A stretch of 64,000 bases of DNA, taken from positions 124,001 through 188,000 of the forward strand of contig NZ_WLYK01000005.1 of the NCBI RefSeq assembly GCF_009707545.1, read 5' to 3'. The DNA is from Nakamurella alba (GTDB lineage Bacteria; Actinomycetota; Actinomycetes; Mycobacteriales; Nakamurellaceae). Under the pieces are notes generated by a model that had not been told where the DNA came from, searched no databases, and saw only the letters and a list, made by a program, of their open reading frames with translations. Below are positions 7,267-59,684 of the stretch, one piece after another. A program made the position numbers and the translations under genes. The stretch's first letter is position 1; each line of letters begins with the position of its first letter.

Positions 7267-10200
7267 TCAGCTTTCACCGCGCCGCCGGCGCCCACCCAGC
7301 AGCAGCGCACCGCCGGCCAGCAGGAGCAGCAGCGCCCACAGCGACAGGTCGTCGGCCGGCACACCGGTCACCGGCAACCCACCGCCCGGCGGCGGGGGCG
7401 TCCCCGGCGCCGGCGGGGTCCCGGGATCACCGGGGGCGCCCGGGTCGGGGGACGATCCCTGGGCCAGCACCTCGACGTCGGCATCCGCGGTCATGTCGAC
7501 CGGGGTGCCCGAGCGGGTGAGCATCACGGAGTTGACCGTCTGGCCCTCCCGCTCGTAGACCACCTCGAGCACCAGCACCGCGGGCACGCCGGGCTGCAGC
7601 GTGCCGATGGTCCACACGCCCTCGCCGTAGCTGCCCTGGCCGGCGTCCTGCCGCACCAGCCGGCCGCCGACCGGGATGGTCTCCACCAGGCCGACGCCCT
7701 CGGCACTGGAGCTGCCCTGCTCGGCGACCGTGATCGTGTAGGTGACCACCTGCCCGATCTCCGCGGACGCCCGGTCGGCGGTCTTGCTGACCGACAGCGA
7801 GCTGTCCGCGATCACCGGAGTCCTTGCGGTGGCGGTGTTGTCGGACGGATCCGGATCCACCGCCCCGGACGACACCGACGCCGTGTTCGACAGCGTCTCC
7901 CGGACACCCGGGTCCACGACGCCGGTGATCGTCCGGGACACCGACGCACCTGCGGCGAGATCCCCGATGTCGCAACGGATCACCGACCCGGTAGCGGAAC
8001 ACCCGGCGGCGTCGTCACCGAGGGTGCCGGGGGTGACCCCGGCCGGCAGCGGATCGGTGATCACCACGGCCGGCGCGGTCACCGGCCCGTCGTTGGTGAC
8101 GGTCAGCCTCCAGGACACCGTTCCGCCGGCCGTCGCCGTCTCCGCTGCCGCGACCTTGGTCAGCGACAGGTCCGCGGCCGCCAGGACGGGAGTGACGGCC
8201 TGGGCGGTGTTGTCGCTCGGATCGGTCTCGTCCGGGCTGACCACCGACACCGTGTTCGCCGCATCGCCGCTCGCGGTGGCCGGCACGGTCGCGGCGACGG
8301 TCACCGTCACCGTCGCACCGGCCGGCAGATCGCCGAGCGCGCAGGTCACGGTGTCGCCGGCGGTGCAGGTGCCCGCGGTCCCGGAGGGCACGGTCGCCGT
8401 TGCGCCGGTGAACCCGGCCGGCAGTCGGTCCGAGAGCAACACCCCGCGGGCGGTGCCCGGGCCGTCGTTGACCACCTCGATGGTCCACGACGCCGCCCCG
8501 CCCGGGGTGAAGGCCGCGGTCCCCGCCGTCTTGGTGACCCGCAGGTCCGCCTGCGGGGTGCCCGCGCCGGCCGAGGCCCCGTTGTCGGTCAGGTCCGGAT
8601 CCGGCGTGGTCGCGGTGACTGCGCCGGTGTTGCTGATGGTCCCGGCGCCGACGTCGCCGGCCAGGGTGCCGGTGATCGTCACGACCACGTCACGGCCGGG
8701 GGCGATCGGTCCGGCCGCCGGGCAACTGACGGCCTGCCCGGTGATCGTGCAGGTGCCGTCGGTGCTGGTCGCGGTCAGTCCGGTCACCGCGGCGGGCACG
8801 CTGTCGGAGATCAGCACGCCCTCCGCCGTGGACGGTCCGTTGTTGGTCGCGGTCAGCGTCCAGGTGACGGTGCCGCCGGGCTGCAGCGGATCCGGCGCCA
8901 CCGTCTTGGTCAGCGCGAGGTTCGCGGACCGGGTGACGGTGGTCGAGCTGGACGCCAGGTCGTTCGTGGTGTCCGGATCGGCGGTGTCGCTGCCGACGGT
9001 CGCCGTGTTGACCAGCAGCGCGCCGTCGTACGCCGGGTCGACGGTGCCGGTGTACGTGATCACCACAGTGGCGCCGGGCGCCAGGTCACCGATCTCGCAG
9101 ACACCGTCCGTGCAGGTGCCGTCCGCCCAACTGCCGCCCAGCCCGGTCACCCCGACCGGCTCGATGTCGTTCACCACGACGTCCCGGGCCACGGACGGGC
9201 CGGACGAGGTGACCTCGACCGTCCAGCTGATGGTCTGTCCGGCGACGACCGTGGCCGGACCGGTCTTGGTGACCGACAGGTCCGCCGCGGTGGTCACGTC
9301 CGTGGCGAGCGACGAGGTGTCGTCGCCGGCACCGGGATCGGGATCGGCGGTCGCCGAGCGCACCTGCGCCGTGTTGGTCAGCTGCGCGAGGGTGAACGCC
9401 GGGTCGACGGTGCCGGTGACCACCACCTGCACCTCGTCACCGACGGCCAGGTCGCCCAGCGTGCACTCGACGGAGGTGCCGCCGGTGGCGGCGTCGGGGC
9501 AGACCCCGTCGCCGGAGAAGGTCACCCCAGTGACACCGGTCGGCAGCACGTCGGTCAGCACCACGTCCCGCGCGGTGGACGGCCCGTCGGGGTTGCCGAC
9601 GGTGATCGTCCAGCTGATCTCCCCACCGGCCACGATCGTGGTCGGGCCGGTCTTGTCGACCACCAGGTGGGCCGCCGCGGTCAACGGGGTCGTCGCGGTC
9701 ACCGAGTTGTTGCCGGGCGCCGGGTCGGGCGTGCCGGACGACACCGCGACGGTGTTGGCCAGTTCGGTCCCGTCCAGGGTCGGGTCGATCGTCCCGGTCA
9801 CCCGGAGCACGATCGCGTTGTCCCGCCCCGGCAGCAGGTCGCCGAGCTCGCACACGCCGGCCTCGCAGACCACCGGAGTGCCGTCCCGGGTGATCACGAC
9901 GTCGTCCAGCCCGGTGGGCAGGGTCTCGGTCAGCAGCACGTCGGTCGCGGTGGACGGACCGGTGTTCGTCACCGTCACCGTCCAGCCGGCCTCGGTACCG
10001 GGGGTGAACACCGCGGCGTCCGGCACCTTCACCACCGACAGATCGGCGGCCCGGGTGACGGTGGTGGTGGCGCTCGCCGACCGGCCGTCGGCCGGGTCCT
10101 CGCCGGGCTCCGGCGTGGACGAGGCGACCTGGGCGGCGTTGACGATCTCCGTGCCGGTGAACGACGGGTCCAGCCCGCCGTCCAGGAACACCCGGATCCG

Positions 10201-13200
10201 GGTGGTGTCGCCGGGGGCGAGATCACCGATGGCACAGGTCAACCCGTCGACACCGAAGGAGCAGTCGCCGCGGCTGGCGACCGCGGACGCGTCGAGCAGT
10301 CCGTCCGGCAGCACGTCGGTGACCACCACGTCCCGGGCCACCGACGGGCCGGTGTTGCCGACCGTCAGCACCCAGGAGAGTGCCTGTCCGGCAACGATCG
10401 TCGCCGGGCCGGTCTTGGTCAGGGTCAGGTCGGCGACCGCCGCCACCGCGGCGTCCGAGGTCCCGGTGCGGGCCGCCGGGTCCGGGTCGGTGTCCGGGGT
10501 CGGCGAGCTCACCGACGCGGTGTTGACCATCGAGGTACCGGCGTAGGCGACGTCGACGGTCACCGGCACGGTGATCGTGACGCTGCTGCCGGCCGGCAGC
10601 ACGCCCAGGTCGCAGCTCTGCACCCGGCCGACCGCGGCACAGCTGCCCTGGGTCGAGCTGCTGCCCGGCGCACGGACCGTCAGGCCCTCGGGGAGCGGGT
10701 CGGTGGCCACCGTCGCCTGGGCGTCGGAGGGACCGTCGTTGGACACCACGATCCGGTACGTCGCATCGGTGCCCGGCACCAGCGGCTCCGGCTGCACCGT
10801 CTTCACCACGGCCAGCCGCGCCGCCGCCGTCACGGTGACATCCGCTGCCGCGGAGTTGTTGTCGCCGTCCGGATCGGGAGTCGCCGAGGAGATCGCCGGC
10901 TGCTGCCGCAGCACGGTCCCGGGTGCGGTGCCCGCGGGCACCATCCCGGACACCACCAGCCGGACCTCGCTGCCATTGCCGATCGCGCCCAGCGCGCAGG
11001 TGGTGCCGCAGTCGGCACCACCGCCCTCCGGCACCACGGTGACGTCCCGCAGCGATACCGGGACCAACTCGCGCAGCGTCACCTCGCGGGCGTCGGACGG
11101 CCCGTTGTTGGTGATCACCACGGTCCACTCCACCCGGGTGCCGGCAACGACGGTCGCCGGGCCGGTGGTGCTGACGGCCAGGTCCGCCGACTCGTCGATG
11201 GAGCCGGTCGCCGTGGAGGAGTTGTTGCCGGACACCGGGTCCGGGGAGGTCCCGGTGATCGTGGCGGTGTTGACCAGCAGCGAGGAGAAGCTCTGCGAGA
11301 GGGTGCCGGTCACGGTGATCACCGGGGTGCTGCCCACCGGGACGGTGCCCAGCTCACAGGTCAGGTCCCGGCCGTCGATGCTGCAGGTGCCGGGGTTCCC
11401 GGCGACGGTGGCCGAGGGCGAGAGCAGTTCGTCCGGCAGCCGGTCGGTGACCACCACGCCGGTGGCGTCGGACGGCCCGAGGTCGGAGACCCGCAGCTCG
11501 AAGGTGGCGGTGTCGCCGGCCACCGGGATCCCGGAGACCAGCGCCTTGCCGATCCGCAGGTCGGCCGAGACCGCCACCGGCGTGGTCGATGTCGCGGTGT
11601 CACCGGACGGGTCGGGATCCTCGTCGGAGGTCACCGTGGCGGTGTTGACCAGGTCGGTGCCGGCGAAGCCGGAGGACAGCGTGCCGGTGACGGTGATGTC
11701 GACCGGGACGGTCGGTGGCACGGTGCCCAGCGCACAGGTCACCGTCTGCCCGTCGACGTCACAGGCGGTGCCGGCCGCACCCCACACCGCGGCGATCCCG
11801 GACACCCCGGCGGGCAGGGTGTCGGTGACGACCACACCGGTCGCGTCGGACGGACCGGCGCTGGTCACCCGGATGTTCCAGGACACCGGCCCGCCCGGCA
11901 CCGCCCGGCCGCCGCCGGTGAAGGTCTTGGCCAGGGTCAGGTCCGCCGACGCCGTCACGACCGTCGAGGCGGTGGCGGTGTTGTCGGAGAGCACGGCCTC
12001 CGGGCTGGTGGTGGAGGCGGTGCCGCTCACCGGCAGCGCACCGGTGGTGGACGGGTTGACCACCGCGGACAGGACGATCTCCGCGCTGCCGCCGACCGGG
12101 ACGGTGCCGGCCGGGCAGGTGGCGGTGGAGCCCGAGACCGTGCACGCACCACCGGGTCCGGAGCCGGTGACCGCGCCGATGCCGGAGGGCAGGTCGACCA
12201 CGACCTGGACGCCGCGGGCGTCGGACGGCCCGGCGTTGGCGGCGGTGAAGGTCCAGCCGATGGTGCGGCCGGCGTCGATGGTGGCCGGCGCGGACGCGGT
12301 GAGCGTCAGCGCGGTGGCGGTGCCGACCGGGGCGGTCGCGGTCGCCGAGTTGCCGGTCGGGTCCGGGTCGGCGGTGCCGGCGGACACGGTGCCGGTGTTG
12401 GTCACCGTCGGGGCGGACCAGTTCGACGCGATCAGGCCGGACACCGTGGCGGTGGCCGACGATCCGGCGGCGATGGTCGCCACCGGGCAGCGCACGACCG
12501 TGGTGCCGGGGCTGACACCCGGTGTGGCGGTGCAGGTCCCGCCCCCGGAGACGACGGCGGCGATGGCCGAGACACCGGACGGGACGACGTCGGAGATGAT
12601 GACGTTCCGCGAGGTGGACGGGCCGGCGTTGGACGCGGTGAGCGTCCAGGTGGCCCGTTCGCCCGCGACCGGGGTGGCCGGCGACACGGTCTTGGTCAGC
12701 GAGAGGTCGCCGGAGGCGGACGTCTCGGTGCTGACGGTGGCGGAGTTGTTGCCCGGCACCGGGTCCGACGTCGGTGAGGTGACCGTCGCGGTGTTGCCCA
12801 CGGTCTCCCCGGTGTAATCGGCGGACAGCGTGCCGGTGACGGTGAGCGCGACGGTGCTGCCGCTGGGCAGCGTGCCGAGCTCGCAGTGCAGCGGGCCGCC
12901 TGTCACCGAGCAGGTCCCGGTACCGGTGGCGGCCGAGGTGAAGGTGACGCCGGTGGCCGGTGTGTCGTCGACGGTCACCGCGGTGGCGGCCGACGGACCG
13001 AGGTTCCGCACCACGATCTGCCACTGCACCGACCCTCCGGCGACCGGGTTGCCGGACAGCACGGTCTTGCGCACCGAGAGGTCGGCGGAGGTGGTCACGG
13101 TGGTGTCCGCCGTCGCGGTGGCGGTCGCCGGGCTGTTGTCGAAGCTGTCCGACGCGGCGGAGGCGGTGTTGCTGATCGCGGTGCCCGGTGCGGTGTCCGA

Positions 13201-16200
13201 GGGCACCGCGAGCACCAGGGTGACCGCGCGGGTGGCGCCGACGGCCATCGACGGCCACCGGCAGGTCAGCACCTCACCGGGGCGGCAGGAGCCGTCGTCG
13301 GAGGCGGTGGCCGAGACGAAGGTGGTGCCGGCCGGGATCCGGTCGGTGACCACCGGGTTGCGGGCGGTCGACGGGCCCGGGTTGGTCACCGTGATCCGGT
13401 ACTCGACAGTGCCGCCGGCCACCGGCGCGCCGCCGGTGACGGTCTTGGTGACCTGCAGGTCGGACCGGGCCGCCACGGCCTGCGTCACGGAGCTGGAGTT
13501 GTTGCCGGACACCGGGTCCGGGGTCTGCGAGGACACCGACGCGGTGGCGGTGAGCCGGCTGCCACCCAGGTCGGGGTCGAGACGCAGGTTGATCTGGACG
13601 GTGGGCGCGGCTCCCGGGGCCAGGTCACCCAGGCTGCAGGTGACGGTCCCGCCGGACGCAGAGCAACTGCCCACCGAGGTGGTCGCGGAGTCGAACGTGG
13701 TGCCGGTCGGCAGCGGGAAGCTGACGACGGCGCCGCGGGCGAAGGACGGCCCGTTGTTCACCACCGAGAGGACGTAGCCCTGCGGGCTGCCGGCCTCCGC
13801 CGGGTCCTGCACCGGAGCGATGATCACGCCGAGATCCACTGCAGTGCTGACGGTCCCGGTGGACGACGCGCTCCGGCTGCCGGTGGTGGTGTCCGGGGTC
13901 GTGGACTCGGCGGTGGCGGTGTTGGTCAGCACGGTGCCGGCCGCGGTTCCCGACGGCACCCGGCCGATCACCTGTACGGTCCGCGCCTGGCCCGCCGGGA
14001 CGGTACCGAAATCACAGCTGATGGAACGGTTCCCGGTCGCGATCGTGCAGGCGTCGCCGGTCGCCGACACACCGCCGGGCACGACGGTCATGGTGCCGGG
14101 CAGGGTGTCGGCCAGCGTCACCGCCGCAGCGTCGGACGGACCGGTGTTGGTCAGCGCCAGGGTGTAGGTCACCGAGCTGCCGGCCTCCACGGTGGTGGCG
14201 TCCTGTGTCTTGGTCAGGGTCAGGTGCGCACGTCGCTCGACGGCGCTGGTGACGCTCGCCGAGTTGTCCGACGGGGTCGGGTCGGTGGCGTCCGAGGACG
14301 CGAGAACGGTGTTGGTGAGCTCGGTGTCACCGGCGGCCGCGGACACCGTCACCGGGACGGTGACGGTCAGCGTGCTACCGGCCGGCAGCACGGCGGTGGT
14401 GCAGTCGACGGCCTGGCCGGCCACCGTGCAGCTGCCCGAGCTCGGCGCCGCGCCGAGCACGGTCAGGGCCGCGGGCAGCGAGTCGGACACCGCGACCGCG
14501 CGGGCGTCGGACGGTCCGTCGTTGAGGACGGTCAGCGTGTAGGTGGCCGGGCTGCCGGCCACCAGCGGCGACGGGTCGACCGACTTGCCGGCCACCAGAT
14601 CCGCCTGCGTGATCACCTCGATGGTCGCGGTGCTGGCGTTGTTCGCGGTCTGCGGGTCGGTGGTGCTGGCGCCGACACCCGCCTGCCCGGTGACGGTGCC
14701 CGGGTCGACCGACGGCCGGACCAGCGCGGTCAGCGGGATGGTGATGTCCGCGCCGACCGGCAGGGTGCCCAGGTTGCAGGTGACGGTGCCGCCGGCGACG
14801 GTGCAGGCACCGCCGCTGGACCCGACGATCGGCTCCAGCCCGGCCGGGACCTGACCGGAGACGACCACGTTCTGCGCGACCGACGGACCGGCATTGGTGA
14901 CCCGGACGCCGAACTGCACCTCGGTGCCGGCGACCACGGTGTTGGCGGGGCCGGTGGGCGCCTGCAGCACGACCGCCACATCGGCGCGGGTGCGGACGTT
15001 GACCGTGGTGGAGGCGGAGTTGTTGCCGGAACTGGGATCCGGGGTCGCGGCGGAGATGGTGGCGGTGTTGGTGACGGCACCGGCCGCGGTCGACGCCACG
15101 GTGCCGGTGAGGGTGACGGTGACCGGTACCCCGACCGGGAGGCTCGCGCTGGTGCAGGACATGGTGGTCGTGGTGGTGCTGCAGCTGAACCCGCCACCGG
15201 AGGCGACCGCGCCGCTGAAGGTGATGCCGGCCGGTGCGGTGTCGGCGATCTGCGCGGACGCGGCGGCCGACGGGCCGTTGTTGATCGCGGTGATCGTGTA
15301 GGTGATCTGGTTGCCGGCGATCACCGGATCGGAGGCGGTGATGCCGATCTGCAGATCGGCGACAGTCTCGCTGGTGGACCGTGCGGTCGCGGTGTTGTTG
15401 GCGGTCACCGGGTCCGGTGTCGTCGCGGAGACGGTGGCCACGTTGGTGATCTCGCCGGTGCCCTCGGCGTCCGTGTCGGCCACGAAGGTCCGGGTGACGA
15501 CCGAGCCGACCGGCACCGTGCCGACCGGGCAGGTGACGGTGCCGGACGAGACGGTGCAGCCGTCCGCGGAGGAGCTGAAGATGACGCCGGTGGGTAGCGG
15601 GTCGCTGATCGAGGCGCCCGTTGCGGTGGACGGCCCGGCGTTGCCGACGGTCAGGGTGTAGGTCACCTGGTCACCGGCGACCACCGGGTTCGGGTCGCCG
15701 ACCTTGGTGAGCGAGAGATCCGCGCTGGTCTGCACGGTGACCGTCGCGGTGGACGAGTTGTTGCCCGGCACCGGGTCGGTGGTCGTCGACGAGGCCGACC
15801 CGGTCAGCGCCAGCGGTCCGGCGGCGCGCGACGGGTCGACGGTGGCCCGCACGGTCACGGTGACGGTGGTGCCCGCGGCCACGGTGCCGGGGGCGCAGGA
15901 CACGGCTCCGCCGGTCACGCTGCAGGTGCCCTGGTTGGCCGAGGCGGAGGTGATGGTCTGACCGGCGACGGCAGGGACGCTCACCTGGACGGCGGCGGCA
16001 TCGGACGGCCCGTTGTTCCGGACGGTCACCGTCCAGGTCTCCGGTCGGCCGGCGACCACCGGATCGGTGGCGGCGGTGGTGGTGACCTGCAGGTCGGCGC
16101 TGGTGGTGACGGTCAGCGCGGCGGCCGCGGAGTTGTTGGCCTGGTTGGGATCCGGAGTGCTGCTCGCGGCCGATCCGTTGGCCGTGAGCGTGCCGGCCGG

Positions 16201-18516
16201 GGTGTTCGGCGCGACGGTGGTGACCACGGTGATCACGGCGGACTGGTTCGGTGCGAGGTCACCGACCGGGCAGCTCACGGTGCTGCCGGTGACGGTGCAG
16301 GTGCCGGCGGGGATGGTCGCCGAGGTGATGGTGACGCCGGTCGGCAGGGTGTCGGTGACGACGGTGGACGCGGCGGTGGACGGCCCGCGGTTGGTCGCGG
16401 TGAGGGTCCACGTCGCCTGGCTGCCGGCCGCCACCGAGCCGGGTGACACGGTGTGGGTCACGGCGACGTCGGCGGAGGTGGTCACGGCGGTGCCGGCCAC
16501 GGCGGTGTTGTTGCCGGCCACGTCGTCGGACACCGCGGAGCTGATCGTCGCGGTGTCGGTGAGGGTGGTGCCGCTCGCCGATCCGGCGGCGATCGACGCG
16601 GTGACCGGGATGGCCAGGGTGCCGCCGTTGGCCAGGGCCGGGGTCGAGCAGGTGACGGTCCGGCCGGAGGCGGAGCAGGTGGTGCCGGACGGCGGCGCGG
16701 CGCTGACGAAGTTCACGCCGGTGGGCAGGGTGTCGGTGACCACGACCGAGGTCGCCTCGTTCGGGCCGTTGTTCACCGCTGTCAGGGTGTAGGTGACCTG
16801 GCTGCCGGCGGTCTGACTGGTCGGTGTCGAGGTCTTGGTGATCCCGAGGTCGGCGATCGCGGACACCGGGGTGTCCACCTGGTTGCCGGTGAAGGTGTAG
16901 TTGCCGCCCAGGGTGCGGGCCCGGTAGGCGAGGTCGGCGGTGTTGGACACGGTCGTGCCCGCGGTCGCGCGGTCCAGCGTGGCGCGGAACCGCACCGTGG
17001 TGGTCTGGTTGACGCCGATGGATCCGCCGGCGCTCGCGGTCGCCCCGGATCCCACCCGGAACCGCACGCTCCGGCTGCCGGCCAGGTACTCGGCGAGGTC
17101 GTCCCCGGCGGCGTCGGTGGCCGCGGTGTTCGCGGTGGTGCCCGGGTTGGCGACCACCACCAGGCTGCCCGGCACGTAGGTGACGTTCGCCGGCAGCGCG
17201 TCGGTGATCACCGAGGCGTCGGCGGGGTCGGAACCGGTGTTGGTCAGCGAGATCTGGTACTGCAGCGTGTCGCCCACCCGGGCCGGGCTGTTGCCGGACA
17301 GGTTGGTCACCGACTTGCTCACCGGGTTGAACGCCGGGGAGTAGAGGTCGATCTGGGTGGTGACCAGGGTCGGGTAGTAGGTGTCGCCGTTGGTGGTGAG
17401 CCGGACGGTGGTGGACGTCTGGCTGTTGGCGAGCACGTTGGTGGCGTTGATCCGGCCGATGTCGGTACCGAAGTTGTTGGTGAAGTTGGGGTTCCGGTTG
17501 GTGATGTCGGTGCCGGCATCACTGATCGCCGAGTCGAAGAAGTTGTTCGACGGCCGGGTGGCGTCGGACAGGGCGGTCCCGTTGAACTCCATGCTGTCGC
17601 CGACGAAGCCGCGGTCGCCCTCCCAGGCCACCACGCCGACGGCCGAGTTCACCGTGCCCGCAGCGGGTGTCAGGAATCCGTTGATGTCGATGGTGGCGGT
17701 GGCCGTGGCACCGGACCCGTTGACGTTCGCGAAGCCGCGGTAGATGCGCAGGTCGCGCAGCGGTGCGGCCGGGTTGCGGTAGGCGACGATCAGCGACCAG
17801 CCTGCGTACCGGTCGGTGCCGGTGTTCGCGGCCATGTCGGCGAACCAGTAGGTGCCGTTGCCGGCCGCCCGCACCAGCGAGGTGACGTCGATGTGGCCGA
17901 CGTAGGGCGAGTAGTCGGTCGACGTGCTCAGGCCCGGGTCGTCGACGGTGCCGGTCAGCGCGGTGTAGGTGGCGGAGGCCGGGGTGCGGAACTTGACGCT
18001 CGCCGCCTGGGCCAGGCTCACCGAGGTCCCCGCCGAGTTGGCCCGGCGGGCGCCCCAGATGAGCTTGGCGTACAGCACCGTCGAGCCGCTGGGCAACGCC
18101 AGGTTCGCGCTGGACGAGTTGCTGGTGGTGGCATCGGTGTCGGCGTCGACGAACGCCATGGTGAAGTCGTTGTTGTTGATGCCGGACCGGGCGGCGGAAC
18201 TGGTGGCCGTGGCCCGCGCGGTGGCACAGGTCGAGGCCGACGTCGGGCAGCTGAGCTGACTGTTGCCGGTGAGCGCGATCGCGCCGTTCTCCTGCGCGGA
18301 GAAGTCGGCGTTGAACGGGATCGGCACGGCCGCCTGCGCCACCGGTGCCTGCACGGTCGTGAGCACCACGGTGAGCCCGAGGGTCATCAACAGCACCGCC
18401 ATCAGGGCGGTGACCCGGTTCGGCCGGCGGATGCGGTGGCGCGGCCGCCCGCCCCTCGCAACGACGGACCCGGAACCGGCTCCCGACCCGACCGACGAAC
18501 CCACCCACCGCGACAT
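7267..18516 (-). CDS. Giant DUF11-repeat cell-wall-anchored surface protein (3749 aa)
   Basis: An 11.25-kb gene for a secreted, probably sortase-anchored adhesin-like protein. The N-terminus has a basic region and a long signal peptide (VTALMAVLLMTLGLTVVLTT, cleavage near AQAA). Residues ~70-390 form a non-repeat head domain with LYAKLIWGARRANSAG and YWFADMAAN. From about residue 394 there are some 26 immunoglobulin-like DUF11 repeats of ~126 residues, each with a strand like ADLSLTKT, VTYTLTVxNxGPSxA, a DxLPxGVT strand and a C-x-(8-12)-C-x-LG pair. A Pro/Gly linker, LPVTG (residues 3714-3718), a hydrophobic segment and RRRR follow. No sortase gene is in the window. The ATG at 18516 has GGAAGG seven bases upstream. 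The frame is intact, with no stop or frameshift. Role: probable stalk-like adhesion or matrix protein (inferred). Confidence 0.92.
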   Translation of the reverse strand: MSRWVGSSVGSGAGSGSVVARGGRPRHRIRRPNRVTALMAVLLMTLGLTVVLTTVQAPVAQAAVPIPFNADFSAQENGAIALTGNSQLSCPTSASTCATARATATSSAARSGINNNDFTMAFVDADTDATTSNSSSANLALPSGSTVLYAKLIWGARRANSAGTSVSLAQAASVKFRTPASATYTALTGTVDDPGLSTSTDYSPYVGHIDVTSLVRAAGNGTYWFADMAANTGTDRYAGWSLIVAYRNPAAPLRDLRIYRGFANVNGSGATATATIDINGFLTPAAGTVNSAVGVVAWEGDRGFVGDSMEFNGTALSDATRPSNNFFDSAISDAGTDITNRNPNFTNNFGTDIGRINATNVLANSQTSTTVRLTTNGDTYYPTLVTTQIDLYSPAFNPVSKSVTNLSGNSPARVGDTLQYQISLTNTGSDPADASVITDALPANVTYVPGSLVVVANPGTTANTAATDAAGDDLAEYLAGSRSVRFRVGSGATASAGGSIGVNQTTTVRFRATLDRATAGTTVSNTADLAYRARTLGGNYTFTGNQVDTPVSAIADLGITKTSTPTSQTAGSQVTYTLTAVNNGPNEATSVVVTDTLPTGVNFVSAAPPSGTTCSASGRTVTCSTPALANGGTLAIPVTASIAAGSASGTTLTDTATISSAVSDDVAGNNTAVAGTAVTTSADVAVTHTVSPGSVAAGSQATWTLTATNRGPSTAASTVVTDTLPTGVTITSATIPAGTCTVTGSTVSCPVGDLAPNQSAVITVVTTVAPNTPAGTLTANGSAASSTPDPNQANNSAAAALTVTTSADLQVTTTAATDPVVAGRPETWTVTVRNNGPSDAAAVQVSVPAVAGQTITSASANQGTCSVTGGAVSCAPGTVAAGTTVTVTVRATVDPSRAAGPLALTGSASSTTTDPVPGNNSSTATVTVQTSADLSLTKVGDPNPVVAGDQVTYTLTVGNAGPSTATGASISDPLPTGVIFSSSADGCTVSSGTVTCPVGTVPVGSVVTRTFVADTDAEGTGEITNVATVSATTPDPVTANNTATARSTSETVADLQIGITASDPVIAGNQITYTITAINNGPSAAASAQIADTAPAGITFSGAVASGGGFSCSTTTTTMSCTSASLPVGVPVTVTLTGTVASTAAGAVTNTATISAATPDPSSGNNSASTTVNVRTRADVAVVLQAPTGPANTVVAGTEVQFGVRVTNAGPSVAQNVVVSGQVPAGLEPIVGSSGGACTVAGGTVTCNLGTLPVGADITIPLTALVRPSVDPGTVTGQAGVGASTTDPQTANNASTATIEVITQADLVAGKSVDPSPLVAGSPATYTLTVLNDGPSDARAVAVSDSLPAALTVLGAAPSSGSCTVAGQAVDCTTAVLPAGSTLTVTVPVTVSAAAGDTELTNTVLASSDATDPTPSDNSASVTSAVERRAHLTLTKTQDATTVEAGSSVTYTLALTNTGPSDAAAVTLADTLPGTMTVVPGGVSATGDACTIATGNRSISCDFGTVPAGQARTVQVIGRVPSGTAAGTVLTNTATAESTTPDTTTGSRSASSTGTVSTAVDLGVIIAPVQDPAEAGSPQGYVLSVVNNGPSFARGAVVSFPLPTGTTFDSATTSVGSCSASGGTVTCSLGDLAPGAAPTVQINLRLDPDLGGSRLTATASVSSQTPDPVSGNNSSSVTQAVAARSDLQVTKTVTGGAPVAGGTVEYRITVTNPGPSTARNPVVTDRIPAGTTFVSATASDDGSCRPGEVLTCRWPSMAVGATRAVTLVLAVPSDTAPGTAISNTASAASDSFDNSPATATATADTTVTTSADLSVRKTVLSGNPVAGGSVQWQIVVRNLGPSAATAVTVDDTPATGVTFTSAATGTGTCSVTGGPLHCELGTLPSGSTVALTVTGTLSADYTGETVGNTATVTSPTSDPVPGNNSATVSTETSASGDLSLTKTVSPATPVAGERATWTLTASNAGPSTSRNVIISDVVPSGVSAIAAVVSGGGTCTATPGVSPGTTVVRCPVATIAAGSSATATVSGLIASNWSAPTVTNTGTVSAGTADPDPTGNSATATAPVGTATALTLTASAPATIDAGRTIGWTFTAANAGPSDARGVQVVVDLPSGIGAVTGSGPGGACTVSGSTATCPAGTVPVGGSAEIVLSAVVNPSTTGALPVSGTASTTSPEAVLSDNTATASTVVTASADLTLAKTFTGGGRAVPGGPVSWNIRVTSAGPSDATGVVVTDTLPAGVSGIAAVWGAAGTACDVDGQTVTCALGTVPPTVPVDITVTGTLSSGFAGTDLVNTATVTSDEDPDPSGDTATSTTPVAVSADLRIGKALVSGIPVAGDTATFELRVSDLGPSDATGVVVTDRLPDELLSPSATVAGNPGTCSIDGRDLTCELGTVPVGSTPVITVTGTLSQSFSSLLVNTATITGTSPDPVSGNNSSTATGSIDESADLAVSTTGPATVVAGTRVEWTVVITNNGPSDAREVTLRELVPVSLRDVTVVPEGGGADCGTTCALGAIGNGSEVRLVVSGMVPAGTAPGTVLRQQPAISSATPDPDGDNNSAAADVTVTAAARLAVVKTVQPEPLVPGTDATYRIVVSNDGPSDAQATVATDPLPEGLTVRAPGSSSTQGSCAAVGRVQSCDLGVLPAGSSVTITVPVTVDVAYAGTSMVNTASVSSPTPDTDPDPAARTGTSDAAVAAVADLTLTKTGPATIVAGQALSWVLTVGNTGPSVARDVVVTDVLPDGLLDASAVASRGDCSFGVDGLTCAIGDLAPGDTTRIRVFLDGGLDPSFTGTEIVNAAQVASSTPEPGEDPADGRSASATTTVTRAADLSVVKVPDAAVFTPGTEAGWTVTVTNTGPSTATDVLLTETLPTGLDDVVITRDGTPVVCEAGVCELGDLLPGRDNAIVLRVTGTIDPTLDGTELANTVAVSSGTPDPAPGNNSVTATTPLTAAAHLVVDKTGPTTIVAGGEISWTITVGNPDGPSTARDVVLTDVLPTGVTGVTFSGDGVCPDAATGGTSVECTLGDLAVGDEVQVVVTGTVDPAFTLAQLTNTAQVRSATADPDPGAGDDTSSLATDVTTAADLSVTKTGPATVVAGQTISWTVEVTSSGPSVARDVVVNDIEPVGVTGLGGSWADGTCTDGVCEIGDLAPGATVVITYTGTVDPAYDGALLVNTATVGSDTADPDTTNDLASSSTTVTRSANLALTKTVAPDPLQPGGTVTWTLTATNNGPSTAEGVLISDSVPAAVTGLTATSTDGTCTITGQAVSCPAAGPIAPGRDVVVTITGTLAGDVGAGTISNTGAVTATTPDPDLTDNGASAGAGTPQADLRVTKTAGTAAFTPGGAASWTIEVVNDGPGTARGVLLSDRLPAGFTGATATVPSGTAGTCTAGDTVTCALGDLPAGATVTVTVAATVPATASGDAANTVSVVSPDETDPSDNTAQAVTPVLAAADLSLTKVAAAETATAGGTVSWRLTVTNDGPVTAPAVVITDPLPAGVTPGTLGDDAAGCSATGSVIRCDIGDLAAGASVSRTITGVVDPGVRETLSNTASVSSGAVDPDPSDNTATARTPVIADSSLSVSKTADRASAEIGQVVTYTITVAEQGSSSAEGVGLVETIPVGGRLVRQDAGQGSYGEGVWTIGTLQPGVPAVLVLEVVYEREGQTVNSVMLTRSGTPVDMTADADVEVLAQGSSPDPGAPGDPGTPPAPGTPPPPGGGLPVTGVPADDLSLWALLLLLAGGALLLGGRRRRGES
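7465..17335 (-). repeat. About 26 tandem DUF11 coding repeats (~380 bp each)
   Basis: The repeats were counted by the recurring start motif (xADLxxxKT, 25 occurrences plus a first, diverged copy beginning near AFNPVSKSV) and the NxGPSxA motif. The copies are diverged at both DNA and protein level (no two look near-identical), so the array looks old and relatively stable rather than freshly expanded. Most copies keep two cysteines in a C-x(8-12)-C-x-(L/V)G arrangement, consistent with one disulphide or metal-free clamp per repeat. The last copy (SSLSVSKTADRASAEIGQ) lacks both cysteines and is the most diverged. Confidence 0.85.
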
Positions 18517-52641: not shown

Positions 52642-53147
52642 AGCCGGGAACCACTCCTGTCACCTCGGGTCGCCCCCACCGGGCACTCCGGCGTGGACGG
52701 TCCCAGGGTACTGGCGCCCCCTCGTCGCCGTCGGGCTCCGCCACCCCGGACGTGGCCGAGCGCGTGCGCGGAAAGGTGGGCCGGACCTCGTCCCGACGAG
52801 CATGCCCGTCCGTTCCGACCAGATCCGTTGCCACCAGCCACGCCCGACGTGGCCCACCGCACCCGATCCGTCGGCAGCACCGCCGACGCAGGAGTCCGGG
52901 CCACCCGAGCCTCCCGACCACCGAGGCCCCGCTCCGATCGGTTGCCACCAGCCACGCCCGACGTGGCCCACCGCACCGGACTCGCCAGCAGGGGTCCCAC
53001 AAGGATCGGCAGCCCGATCACGCCGAGGCTGCCCCTCCCCCCCGGTCCGGACACATTCCCGACCGCCGCCAAGGCGCTGGAACAGGGCTTTGTGGATACC
53101 GAGGAACTACTTGCCCATCGCGGCGTCGGGTGCGGAACAGTTCGCCG
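52642..53147. other. Gene-less region with repeats before the DUF559 gene
   Basis: About 500 bp with no credible gene. It holds the left block of direct repeats (52822-52980), an extra CCGGACGTGGCCGAGCGC copy (52746-52763) also found on the far side (54240-54257), and just before the DUF559 start a slightly AT-richer stretch (gggctttgtggataccgag, 53084-53102) where a promoter may lie. Confidence 0.5.
52822..52980. repeat. Left direct-repeat block flanking the DUF559 gene
   Basis: Two copies of GTTGCCACCAGCCACGCCCG continuing ACGTGGCCCACCGCA begin at 52827 and 52941 (114-bp period). Each core contains the small hairpin CCACG-cccga-CGTGG. The block from 52822 through the second core is about 95% identical to 54053-54222 on the other side of the gene. 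Confidence 0.85.
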
Positions 53148-54050
53148 ATGGGGCGGAACGGGATCGAGAAGCGGCTGCATCGGCAGGACGGGGTCATCCA
53201 CCGGGATCAGGTGATCAGCGCCGGCGGGACATCGCGGCAGATCGAGCTCGCGGTCGAGCGGCGTGAGTGGATCCGGGTGCTCCCCGGCGTCTACCGGGCC
53301 ATCGCCTTCCCTGAATCGGTCAGGTCCCGGATCCGCGCTGCCGCGCTGTGGAGCGGCGATGGCAGCGCGGTTGCGGGTTGGGCAGCCGCCTGGTGGTGGC
53401 AGGTCACGACCGACGAGCCACCGGAGGTCGAGATCCACATCGCGAGGAACCGAGGCCTGCGTGCCCGTCCGGGGATCCGCCTTGTCAAGCGCGAACCGCT
53501 GGACGACGAGCTGGTCCGGCATAGCGGTCTCCTCGTGATGGACCGGGTCTCCGCCGTGATCCAGGCAGCAGTCGCCATGGGAGCGGGCGGCCTGCAACTG
53601 CTCGACCGACAGCTGCAGAAGGCAGTGATCACCATCGACGACCTCGAGCACTACATCCAGCGGCACCGGCACGAGCGGGGGAACCACGGTGTCCGACGCC
53701 TCATGGCCGTCGCCCGGGACGGTGCGGCCGCCGAGTCAGAGCGCCGGTGCATGCGCATCCTCCGCTCGGCAGGGATCACGGGGTGGCAGACGGGATTCGA
53801 GATCCCGGTCGCCGGGCGGGTCTACCACCCTGATCTCGCCTTTCCGCGGGAACGGGTGTTGATCGAGATCGACGGACTCGCCTGGCACACCGATCCCGAC
53901 CGTTTCCGGATCGACCGCAGACGGCAGAACGATCTCGTCATCCTCGGTTGGACCGTCCTGCGTTTCACCTGGTACGACCTCGAGCACGCACCGGAGACGG
54001 TCGTACGGTCCGTGCGAGCTGCACTCGCATCCGGCCGACCCCGCCCCTGA
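53148..54050 (+). CDS. DUF559/AbiEi-like protein with PD-(D/E)XK nuclease-type fold
   Basis: A 300-residue protein of the actinobacterial DUF559 group. Residues ~10-55 look like the winged-helix AbiEi antitoxin-type N-terminal domain (VIHRDQVISAGGTSRQIELAVERREWIRVLPGVYRA). The C-terminal Vsr/REase-like domain has AESERRCMRILRSAG, YHPDLAFP (Asp229), VLIEIDG (Glu240, Asp242), HTDPDRF, RRRQNDLVILGWTVLRFTW. D-x(n)-E-x-D matches a PD-(D/E)XK-like site, so DNA cleavage or binding is plausible. No partner AbiEii toxin is beside it. It is flanked by long direct repeats. The start has a poor ribosome-binding site. Confidence 0.82.
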   Translation: MGRNGIEKRLHRQDGVIHRDQVISAGGTSRQIELAVERREWIRVLPGVYRAIAFPESVRSRIRAAALWSGDGSAVAGWAAAWWWQVTTDEPPEVEIHIARNRGLRARPGIRLVKREPLDDELVRHSGLLVMDRVSAVIQAAVAMGAGGLQLLDRQLQKAVITIDDLEHYIQRHRHERGNHGVRRLMAVARDGAAAESERRCMRILRSAGITGWQTGFEIPVAGRVYHPDLAFPRERVLIEIDGLAWHTDPDRFRIDRRRQNDLVILGWTVLRFTWYDLEHAPETVVRSVRAALASGRPRP

Positions 54051-54052
54051 CT

Positions 54053-54222
54053 GATCCGTTGCCACCAGCCACGCCCGACGTGGCCCACCGCACCCGATCC
54101 GTCGGCCGCACCACCGACGCAGGAGTCCGGGCCGCCCCGAGCCTCCCGACCACCGAGGTCCACGCTCCGATCCGTTGCCACCAGCCACGCCCGACGTGGC
54201 CCACCGCATCCGATCCGTCGGA
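54053..54222. repeat. Right direct-repeat block flanking the DUF559 gene
   Basis: Two copies of the same core begin at 54058 and 54174 (116-bp period), starting three bases after the DUF559 stop codon. The order, spacing and intervening sequence (GACGCAGGAGTCCGGGC, GAGCCTCCCGACCACCGAGG) match the left block. A diverged additional element with CCGGACGTGGCCGAGCGC follows at 54240-54257. Confidence 0.85.
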
Positions 54223-57004: not shown

Positions 57005-57949
57005 GTGTCCGATCGTCACGTCCTCGTCCTCGCCGGTGGTCTCACCCACGAGCGTGAGGTGTCGCTGCGCTCCGGTTCCCGACTGGCGGAATCGCTGCGC
57101 CGGCAGGGCGTGGACGTGACGCTGCGGGATGCGGACGCGTCGCTGTTGCCGTGGCTGGTCCAGCACCGGCCGGATGCCGCGGTGATCGCCCTGCACGGCG
57201 GTCGTGGTGAGAACGGAGCCGTGCACGGTGTACTGGAGATGGCGGGCGTGCCGTTCGTCGGCACCGCCGCGCACGAGTGCCGACTGGCCTGGGACAAGCC
57301 GACCGCCAAGACCATGATGCACCGCGCCGGATTCCTCACCCCGAACTGGATGACACTGGCACACAACACCTTCCGTGACCTCGGTGCGGGCGCGCTGATC
57401 GACAGCCTGGCGCACCATCTCGGGATGCCGTTGATGCTGAAGCCGTACCAGGGCGGGTCCGCGCTCGGCGCCACCAAGGTGACCGATGCCGCCGAGGTGC
57501 CGGGTGCGCTGGTGCAGGCGTTCGCCTACGGCGACGTGGTGCTGGTCGAGCAGTTCGTCACCGGCACCGAGGTGTCCGTCACGGTGATCGACACCGACTC
57601 CGGCCCGCGGGCCCTGCCGGCGGTCGAGATCGTGCCGGACAGCGGGGTGTTCGACTACGAGTCCCGTTACACCGCGGGCCTCACCACCTACTTCACCCCC
57701 GCCCGGCTCTCCGACGAGAGTGCGGCCGCAGCCGCCGATCTGGCCATCGGCGCGCACCGCGAGCTCGGACTGCGCGACGTCTCCCGCACCGACGCCATCG
57801 TCGACGCCGACGGTCGGGTCCACTTCCTCGAGGTCAATGTCTCCCCCGGCCTCACCGAGACCTCCATGCTCCCCATGGCCGTCGAGGCCGCCGGCGAGGA
57901 CCTCGGCCACCTCTACTCCGCGCTGATCGACCGGGCGTTGGCGCGGTAG
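57005..57949 (+). CDS. D-alanine--D-alanine ligase family ATP-grasp enzyme
   Basis: A 314-residue ATP-grasp ligase. N-domain: LAGGLTHEREVSLRSG and ALHGGRGENGAVHGVLEMAGVPFVG; central: LMLKPYQGGSALGATKV (ATP Lys, Gly loop); C-terminal: VLVEQFVTGTEVSVTV, VSRTDAIVD (metal Asp) and FLEVNVSPGLTETSMLPMA (E, N metal ligands). The key residues of Ddl are kept, but it is shorter than housekeeping Ddl (usually ~350-370), so it may be a paralogue making another D-amino acid dipeptide. The GTG start has GGAG at -14. Cell-wall synthesis is the likely process, given the murL-murD2 pair 2.5 kb downstream. Confidence 0.85.
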   Translation: MSDRHVLVLAGGLTHEREVSLRSGSRLAESLRRQGVDVTLRDADASLLPWLVQHRPDAAVIALHGGRGENGAVHGVLEMAGVPFVGTAAHECRLAWDKPTAKTMMHRAGFLTPNWMTLAHNTFRDLGAGALIDSLAHHLGMPLMLKPYQGGSALGATKVTDAAEVPGALVQAFAYGDVVLVEQFVTGTEVSVTVIDTDSGPRALPAVEIVPDSGVFDYESRYTAGLTTYFTPARLSDESAAAAADLAIGAHRELGLRDVSRTDAIVDADGRVHFLEVNVSPGLTETSMLPMAVEAAGEDLGHLYSALIDRALAR

Positions 57950-57967
57950 GTCCGCGGGGCGGGGTTA

Positions 57968-58725
57968 GGGACAACTGCGCCTGGAGGAGTTGGTAGACCG
58001 CGGGTTCCGGGGGTCTGGTGCTGTCGTGCAGGGGCCGGGAAGGGAACCGTTCCGGACGTCTGGTGTTCCGGGGCCGTCTGGCTACACGCACGGTAGCTAC
58101 GAGGCCCGGGAACGAGAAGGGCTGCAGGGTAGAGGCTGTCACCGACTCCTGTGGTCGGGTTCAGGGACAACTGCGCCTGGAAGAGCTGGTCGGCGCGTGG
58201 GTTTCTGGGTCGGGTGCTGTCGCGCAGGGGCCGGGAAGGGAACCGTTCCGGACGTCTGGTGTTCCGGGGCCGTCTGGCTACACGGGCTGTAGCCAGACGG
58301 CCAACGAACGAGAAGAGCGGACGGGTAGGACCTGTCACCGCCACCTATGGTCGGGTTCAGGGACACTGCGCCTGGAAGAGCTGGTCGGCGCGTGGGTTTC
58401 GGGGTCGGGTGCTGTCGCGCAGGGGCCGGGAAGGGAACCGTTCTGGACTTCTCGTGTTCCGGGGCCGTCTGGCTACACGGACTGTAGCCAGACGGCCAAC
58501 GAACGAGAAGCGCTGCAGGGTGGGGCCTGTCACCACCGGAGTGGTCAGGTCCCGGGACAACTGCACCTGGAAGAGTTGGTCGGCATGCAGGTTCCGGAGG
58601 TCGGGTGCTGTCGCGCAGGGGCCGAGAAGGGAACCGTTCCGGACTTCTCGAGTTCCGGGGCCGTCTGGCTACACGGACTGTAGCCAGACGGCCAAGGAAC
58701 CGAAAAGACCTTCACCCCAGAGGTT
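57968..58725. repeat. Tandem array of four ~195-bp hairpin units
   Basis: Units begin at 57968, 58164, 58360 and 58554 (each starts GGGACA(A)CTGC), giving periods of 196, 196 and 194 bp; the fourth is truncated near 58725. Shared blocks are CCTGGAAGAGCTGGTCGG, GTGCTGTCGCGCAGGGGCCG, AAGGGAACCGTTCCGGAC and a hairpin with a perfect 15-bp stem (GGCCGTCTGGCTACA) and five-base loop at 58268-58302, 58463-58497 and 58659-58693. In unit 1 the right arm is degraded. The array lies between convergent genes. Several frames stay open through it, but they are read in shifting frames and have no start or family likeness, so it is taken as non-coding. Confidence 0.9.
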
Positions 58726-58770
58726 CCCGGGCCCGTCAGGGTCGGTACCGGGGGTCTGAACGGTCCAGAA

Positions 58771-59619
58771 CTACAGCACGGCAGGTCGTGCCTTGCGCAA
58801 CACGTCCGCCAGCGACAGCGCCGGGCGACCCAGCAACGTGGGGACGTCGGGGCTGACCCGGGCCAGCACGCCGGACCCGATGGCGGTGTAGGTGGAGACC
58901 CAGGCGTCGACCTGCCAGTCGGGGGCGCCGTATCCGGCGCGGGAGGCGTAGGCCTCGTCCAGGGTCTCCTCGACATAGCGCACCACATCGCCGGTGACGG
59001 CGCTGATCACCACCGCGGCCTCGGCCAGCGACAGCGCCTCCGGGCCGGTCAGCTGGTAGGTGGCATCGACGTGTGCGCCGGGATCCTGCAGCACCCGGGC
59101 CGCCACCGCCGCCACATCGGCCTGCGCGACCGGGGCCAGCCTGCCGTCGCCGGCCGGGCCGCGGATCACCCCGTCCACGGCCATCAGCGGGAGGAAGTCG
59201 CTGTAGAAGTTGTCGCGCAGCAGGGTGTACGAGATCCCGGAGGAGCGCAGGTGCTCCTCGGTGGCCCAGTGGTCGCGGCCCAGGGTGAACAGCGAGTCGG
59301 GGGCCGCGGCGTCGAACGAGGTGTAGACCAGGTGCCGCACGCCGGCGGCGACGGCGGCGTCGATGAAGGTCCGGTGCTCGTCGACCCGGTCCGCCGACTC
59401 GGCGGCCGACACCATCAACGCCACCTCGACGCCCTCCAGCGCCGCCTGCACCGCCGCGGCGTCCCGGTACGAGGCCTGCCGGACGGAGGCCCCCGGCAGC
59501 TCCGGCGCCCGGGACGGGTCCCGCACCACCAGCCGTAGGGGCAGCCCGGCAGCGGCCAGCTCCCGCGCCACGAGTCCGCCGACAGTGCCCGTCGACCCGG
59601 TGATGCCCAGTTCCGTCAT
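58771..59619 (-). CDS. NmrA-like NAD(P)-binding oxidoreductase (QorB-type)
   Basis: A 282-residue atypical short-chain dehydrogenase. ITGSTGTVGGLVARELAAAG is the NADP-binding loop; VVRDPSRA follows strand 2; HLVYTSFDAAAPDSLF and WATEEHLRSSGISYTLLRDNFYSDFL match the QorB/NAD(P)H:quinone oxidoreductase and NmrA-like groups, where the Tyr-x-x-x-Lys site is absent. The C-terminal part fits the substrate lid. Start: ATG 59619; TTG 59631 is a less likely alternative. It is monocistronic, divergent from pgeF. Confidence 0.87.
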   Translation of the reverse strand: MTELGITGSTGTVGGLVARELAAAGLPLRLVVRDPSRAPELPGASVRQASYRDAAAVQAALEGVEVALMVSAAESADRVDEHRTFIDAAVAAGVRHLVYTSFDAAAPDSLFTLGRDHWATEEHLRSSGISYTLLRDNFYSDFLPLMAVDGVIRGPAGDGRLAPVAQADVAAVAARVLQDPGAHVDATYQLTGPEALSLAEAAVVISAVTGDVVRYVEETLDEAYASRAGYGAPDWQVDAWVSTYTAIGSGVLARVSPDVPTLLGRPALSLADVLRKARPAVL

Positions 59620-59684
59620 GCCCGCTGCCAACGCCGCCGGTCCCGGAAGATTCCCGCCCGGAAGCCACCCGGCATGCTGGACCG

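Follow-up and report, generated by a model that had tools for sequence, protein, structure and literature searches.

Closest described systems

REP/BIME elements and their RAYT (TnpA-REP) enzymes form REPtrons, in which dispersed and tandem palindromes accompany one enzyme gene placed between palindromes. Two accounts place the RAYT gene either close to REPs or with long inverted repeats on its two sides (PMC3733652; PMC8266576). One of them also describes CGTC repeats that apparently have no dedicated transposase (PMC3733652). Among proteins that bind or cut DNA, the EDxHD homing enzyme I-Bth0305I dimerises on a target that is nearly 60 bp long (PMC3943268), and AbiEi antitoxins bind inverted repeats (PMC7319586). 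Caulobacter VsrA, a DUF559 protein, is presented as a Vsr-like, predicted mismatch-repair endonuclease linked to cytosine methylation (PMC12907096). Here, we describe a repeat array from the genome of Nakamurella alba that is one local cluster of a dispersed, palindrome-like repeat family and thus more than a local duplication.

The array and its palindromes

In the window (the whole stretch of 64,000 nucleotides that was analysed, positions 124,001 to 188,000 of contig NZ_WLYK01000005.1), an earlier note made from the sequence had reported four tandem units of about 195 bp, and TRF bore this out with one array at 57962-58708 (period 196, 3.8 copies, 87% matches). Based on TRF and the unit spacing, the units, which carry no strand assignment, were placed at 57968-58163, 58164-58359, 58360-58553 and, in truncated form, 58554-58708. 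Unit-to-unit distances are 196, 195, and 196 bp, and the ungapped identity of the units to unit 2 (173 nt) is 66-93%. As had also been observed, the array lies between convergent genes: a D-Ala-D-Ala ligase-like (ddl-like) gene on the plus strand (57005-57949, Pfam PF07478/PF01820) and an NmrA-like/NAD(P)-binding gene on the minus strand (58771-59631, Pfam PF13460/PF05368).

Each unit had been credited with a perfect 15-bp stem. This holds for units 2 to 4, in which the arms GGCCGTCTGGCTACA and TGTAGCCAGACGGCC are identical across units and the loops read cgggc, cggac, and cggac, but the full repeated element is a 47-bp palindrome of 10 + 27 + 10 nt, termed type A here and likewise listed without strand. 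It lies at 58262-58308 in unit 2 (perfect inner stem at 58268-58282/58288-58302), 58457-58503 in unit 3, and 58653-58699 in unit 4. The right arm of unit 1, supposedly lost, is not wholly gone, as an imperfect 47-bp palindrome with a degenerate right arm persists at 58066-58112 (15/21 pairs). A second palindrome, GGAAC-C-GTTCC, which had been listed as kept, is not intact in unit 3, where GTTCT is found. Relative to dinucleotide shuffles, the 47-mers have folding z scores of -4.0, -6.1, -6.7, and -9.7 in units 1 to 4, and the entire 196-nt unit is modestly above shuffles in structure (z -1.6 on the plus strand and -2.7 on the minus strand).

The contiguous copies of about 196 bp differ from the CRISPR format of short identical repeats with unique spacers, in agreement with the earlier note. 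As to its suggestion of a structured RNA, no Rfam covariance model matched at its gathering score in the whole window. A sigma-70 scan of 57900-58800 also gave no match. Elsewhere in the window, positions 7800-17000 contain many divergent repeats spaced about 375 bp apart, perhaps encoding a repeat-domain protein.

Dispersal within one genome

A BLASTN search with the array in its own genome returned weak partial matches only, yet the palindrome was common to them. Near these partial copies there often stood another 47-bp palindrome, here called type B (TTCGTTGGCC, 27 nt, GGCCAACGAA). Covariance models, trained on 14 type-A and 9 type-B copies, located at least 43 separate type-A places (from 73 rows, in which both strands and overlapping matches are included) and at least 12 type-B places (from 22 rows) in the genome; both counts are lower bounds because only 150 first-look candidates were scored per genome. 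Among named organisms, the ddl protein places Nakamurella species nearest, and in 16 other genomes of the genus, one of them 88% complete, the same models found neither type at E ≤ 0.01. The type-A family is therefore confined to its own genome among those searched. The exact type-B pattern had no match in a genome contig collection, outside which the N. alba genome itself possibly lies. Absence from close relatives, lack of transcription, and lack of other copies had together been named as the outcome that would reduce the array to a functionless local duplication; the family is indeed absent from the 16 relatives, but many copies stand elsewhere in its own genome. The proposal of a dispersed element that duplicated in place is thus supported, with several of the type-A places forming small arrays.

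Tandem type-A copies occur, for example, at C5:119299/119484/119667, C8:468887/468978/469069, and C8:470257-470644, and tandem units of lengths other than 196 bp are present in the genome. Composite arrays of the form A-B or A-B-A also exist, for example at C1:1351645-1351937 and C11:166912-167229. At C1:1484049-1484289 (L032 9050-9290), tandem units of about 75-80 bp carrying AACTGCGCCCGGA directly precede an A-B palindrome pair, and motifs similar to these units are also present in other clusters.

DUF559 nuclease loci in the genome of the array

Type-A copies also flank a gene. At C8:469.1-470.1 kb, a DUF559 gene with an AbiEi-like part and a Vsr-like nuclease has type-A copies on both sides, with three in one flank and four in succession in the opposite one. 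The type-A model, whose 14 sequences included none from this locus, recovered 6/7 of these copies, three on each side. Overall, Pfam identified four stand-alone DUF559 genes in this genome, and repeat arrays lie on both sides of three of them. The second, at C5:709.3-710.2 kb, is flanked on both sides by weakly palindromic type-D repeats, and the third lies in the window. The fourth, at C1:573 kb, has no such flanking repeats, and a fifth DUF559 match is part of a 1662-codon frame.

The DUF559 gene in the window (53148-54050, plus strand, start codon inferred from alignment) has an AbiEi-like N-terminal half and is flanked by 47-bp type-C repeats without strand assignment. On the 5' side, these are found at 52822-52868 (weakly palindromic, 14/21 pairs) and 52936-52982, and on the 3' side at 54053-54099, which begins 2 bp past the stop codon, and 54169-54215. 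Across 52822-54215, they form two-unit direct-repeat arrays, with copies 1 and 3 being 96% identical over 85 bp. Flank BLAST gave only a 19-bp match at this gene, which can be attributed to the caller having placed the start too far upstream. A comparison with the syntenic stretches of two Nakamurella genomes did not reveal this gene; since the neighbouring MFS gene was likewise not found in them, this is not an empty site. 47-mers resembling type C occur at C5:39322, C5:39454, C8:101582, and C11:175927.

The symmetry of these flanking repeats is weak. The C8 type-A copies, type C, and type D show 58-74% pairing, and most are individually not above the best of 40 shuffles; likewise, a strict script for recurrent palindromes scored 0/4 of the DUF559 loci of this genome as positive. 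On contig C19, four 47-bp palindromes (L047 13414-13895, spaced 166, 129, and 140 bp apart) resemble those flanking the C5:709 kb DUF559 gene, and a divergent DUF559-like frame missed by the Pfam search lies at L047 2264-3376, with no clear matching flanks (best 27 bits).

Repeats bracket DUF559 genes across the genus and the order

We compared the 5' and 3' flanks of called genes of 230-520 aa by BLASTN in 37 stretches taken from elsewhere in the genus and four from the genome of the array, leaving DUF559 genes outside these size limits or near a stretch end out of the count. Flanks matching at ≥35 bits were found for 26/35 DUF559 genes versus 6/143 control genes (Fisher p = 4e-18). In 20 stretches from the rest of the order, the corresponding figures were 7/16 and 0/49 (p = 2e-5), with three more DUF559 genes at stretch ends and one not counted as called. 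The 35-bit threshold was picked after the counts were seen, and other thresholds point the same way: 26/35 versus 9/143 in the genus and 8/16 versus 5/49 in the order at 30 bits, and 15 versus 5 and 6 versus 0 at 50 bits. Matching flanks were absent from 9/35 DUF559 genes of the genus and 9/16 at the order level, the C1:573 kb gene being one of those without. Among the six positive controls, L230 is itself a DUF559 gene and four adjoin one, while L236:699-1709 does not. The shared flank segment was palindromic beyond all 100 shuffles of the same segment in 15/26 cases; 7 of the 11 pairs that were not clear in this sense are non-palindromic inverted repeats of 30-90 bp, and the pair at the window gene is the 19-bp match mentioned above.

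Stricter scripts gave smaller numbers. Palindrome pairs at an identity of ≥0.70 bracketed 9/36 DUF559 genes versus 4/270 others, the four being L230 (DUF559), L237 (overlapping a DUF559 match), and L212 and L240 (each adjoining one), and the script for recurrent palindromes scored 14/41 DUF559 loci as positive, including L212, in which both copies lie downstream. As judged from these genome comparisons, the bracketing of DUF559 genes by repeats in many genomes is a replicated association. Among the open-access matches listed, no title or abstract start links DUF559 to palindromes.

In two other genomes, the bracketing palindrome is also dispersed. In genome G006, it occurs at six places (two at the gene, one 5.4 kb off, and three far away), and in genome G002 at nine, of which three belong to the nuclease locus and the other six lie away from it. 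Neither palindrome was found in 16 other genomes, and the pattern read backwards gave no match in either case. When extended outward, 6/9 of the G002 copies reach at least 61 bp (four exactly 61), and the remaining three measure 43-51 bp. Over 32 loci, similarity between nucleases did not correlate with similarity between palindromes beyond close orthologues (Mantel rho -0.09, p = 0.93). Neither of two comparisons between sister genomes revealed an indel at a palindrome or a pair of empty and occupied sites, and a third, with an ambiguous alignment and a run of N in one stretch, gave no clean insertion. A DUF559 region in two sister genomes (L222 and L217) contains several 53-60-bp repeats, seen at L222 4461-5063, 10609-10670, and 11438-11502; these have GTGTG/CACAC ends and are not simple palindromes.

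Symmetry as the copies drift

In the first alignments (14 type-A and 9 type-B copies), pair covariation was not above that of shuffles. With 33 of 43 type-A copies (10 whose match length was not 47 nt were dropped), picked with a model that assumes the stem, the number of paired cells, the number of double-change cells, and the covariation score beat 500/500 shuffles and every slid control. The sterner counts failed, with the number of double-change pairs reached by 429/500 shuffles and that of pair types by 372/500. Retention of the dyad symmetry during drift is therefore only partly supported for type A. It is well supported for the G002 palindrome, in which six pairs have changed on both sides among the nine copies, a number reached by 1/500 shuffles and none of the slid controls; pair types were not above shuffles in this set.

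Proposed tandem amplification of a nuclease-associated repeat

The explanation that we consider best, at about an even chance, is that the array arose by tandem amplification of the non-autonomous type-A repeat, which is REP/BIME-like in standing in dispersed clusters downstream of genes and whose spread would be driven by a DUF559 nuclease partner. The proposed autonomous partner is the C8:469.1-470.1 kb gene, with its AbiEi-like DNA-binding part and its Vsr-like (EDxHD/PD-(D/E)XK) nuclease. The process may run as follows: (i) the protein would bind its palindrome, either in dimeric form or with the DNA extruded as a hairpin; (ii) it would nick or cut there; (iii) repair of the break could copy the repeat and its flanks to new intergenic sites; and (iv) recombination between copies could then generate tandem arrays such as the one in the window. 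We infer binding, cleavage, and copying, and the part of the nuclease rather than another enzyme in driving the spread, from the arrangement of genes and repeats. No nuclease partner was identified for type B.

The main competitor is plain tandem duplication, in which slippage or unequal recombination would have copied an old intergenic repeat in place, with only an incidental link to DUF559. In its favour are the likeness and even spacing of the units in the window, the presence of tandem units of other lengths elsewhere in the genome, and the weakly palindromic nature of the nuclease flanks in this genome. The presence of at least 43 type-A places and DUF559 bracketing far above that of control genes speak against it, and we regard this explanation as unlikely. 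The pairing check in the genome of the array and the sterner type-A counts make nuclease-driven amplification slightly less likely, and plain duplication slightly more so.

Genomic placement

Among 55 type-A or type-B sites, 48 are intergenic, 5 fall inside called frames, and 2 sit at a contig end with one flank missing. The spacers containing such sites number 23, of which 11 are convergent, 12 tandem, and none divergent, against a background of 30 convergent, 57 tandem, and 29 divergent among 116 spacers (≥60 bp) in 12 stretches including the window. The lack of divergent spacers (p = 0.0013) is the stronger signal, the convergent excess being weaker (p = 0.03). The gene calls behind these counts come from our own simple GC-frame script, and the neighbouring calls include some short, doubtful ones. 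In G002, one dispersed copy of the palindrome sits between divergently called genes, so the avoidance of divergent spacers is not absolute.

This placement would fit a bidirectional form of the multi-hairpin terminator that the earlier note had suggested between the convergent genes, and the position downstream of genes leaves room for a terminator-like side role. Nevertheless, a scan of 57900-58800 found no hairpin followed by a T run, so the intrinsic form of this idea was not upheld. Termination requires neither dispersal within one genome nor 196-bp units, and insertion tolerated only away from promoters would yield the same spacer bias. We consider termination an unlikely account of the array.

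The nuclease protein

In Pfam searches, the nuclease proteins match DUF559, often with the MTES_1575 nuclease family below cut-off, and some have AbiEi_4 at the N-terminus. In three DUF559 proteins from the genome of the array, about the N-terminal half is matched by AbiEi models of PADLOC; for the G002 protein, the match is weak. Four acidic residues in an E, D, ExD arrangement (E207, D238, E249, and D251) are invariant in 20/20 aligned DUF559 proteins. The proposed partner has one feature of EDxHD homing endonucleases, a Vsr-like nuclease domain with conserved acidic residues. The profile of the aligned proteins matches PDB 3hrl (E = 2e-11) and PDB 3r3p, 'Mobile intron protein' (E = 1.9e-5), and we take the latter to be I-Bth0305I. 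Considering inverted-repeat binding by AbiEi and the long dimeric target of the EDxHD enzyme together, both halves of the protein would suit a palindromic DNA site.

The similarity to the EDxHD homing endonucleases thus consists of the nuclease-domain profile match to 3r3p and, on the side of the known enzyme, of the long dimeric target reported in PMC3943268. In contrast to a homing endonuclease, whose gene splits its target, the gene here is flanked by whole palindromes, and the palindrome itself is dispersed. The N-terminal half is shared with type IV AbiEi antitoxins, which differ in that the AbiEi-like part is fused here to a nuclease. The DUF559/PD-(D/E)XK domain is shared with Caulobacter VsrA, which differs in its predicted role in mismatch repair and its link to cytosine methylation; the string 'palindrom' occurs 0 times in PMC12907096.

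The AbiEi-like part also allows the palindromes to be read as operators of the DUF559 proteins, serving autoregulation at the gene and acting as decoys elsewhere. Inverted-repeat binding by AbiEi antitoxins (PMC7319586) fits such a role, as do the three proteins of this genome that match AbiEi models and those that carry AbiEi_4. However, copies lie 3' as well as 5' of the gene, in arrays, and far off downstream of other genes, and an operator does not need to be dispersed, which makes the operator reading rather improbable.

Comparison with REPtrons

The earlier note had stated that the array fits no REP format. With regard to the GTAG tag and the Y1 transposase, this is accurate; the genomic behaviour, in contrast, is REP/BIME-like. 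As in REPs, a short palindrome is present in many extragenic copies, here at the type-A and type-B places counted above; as in BIMEs, different palindromes (A with B) are mixed in composite arrays; and as in REPtrons, dispersed and tandem palindromes go together with one enzyme gene located between palindromes. Some RAYT genes are instead flanked by long terminal inverted repeats (PMC3733652; PMC8266576), as are some DUF559 genes. On the other hand, the palindromes here reach greater lengths, from about 44 bp up to 60 bp and beyond, and a Vsr-like nuclease joined to an AbiEi-like part takes the partner role in a genome without a Y1 transposase match. By eye, the GTAG (or CGTC) tetranucleotide that marks one foot of a REP palindrome is not seen in that place in 33 aligned type-A copies, GTAG being found inside the stem, and a search for RAYT/Y1 transposases (PF01797) gave no match in this genome while matching 5/14 control genomes. 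Either a classical REP/RAYT element or a MITE mobilised in trans by an IS transposase would agree with the REP-like size, intergenic sites, and arrays and with the long inverted repeats at some DUF559 flanks, but the missing Y1_Tnp match and GTAG tag leave it very improbable. The system that we propose, with a DUF559 nuclease in place of a RAYT, would resemble a REPtron in its working, and we do not class it as one.

The recurrence of nuclease bracketing in related bacteria suggests that there may be an unrecognised kind of selfish repeat system. A broader form of this idea, which we hold tentatively and with the balance of probability leaning against it, is that DUF559/AbiEi-like proteins could be widespread, unrecognised repeat-mobilising nucleases. 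Each would recognise a palindrome of its own of about 45-60 bp, with its gene between copies of the palindrome or of inverted repeats, and would have seeded genome-specific repeats across actinobacteria. Such systems would be REPtron-like but of independent origin, with a Vsr-type nuclease as their starting point, and the array in the window would be one product. If true, systems of this sort would have arisen more than once, since an enzyme class unrelated to RAYTs would then also stand between palindromes of its own. It would also provide a candidate role for PF04480, a common family without an assigned function that has matches in 105/121 sampled genomes of the order.
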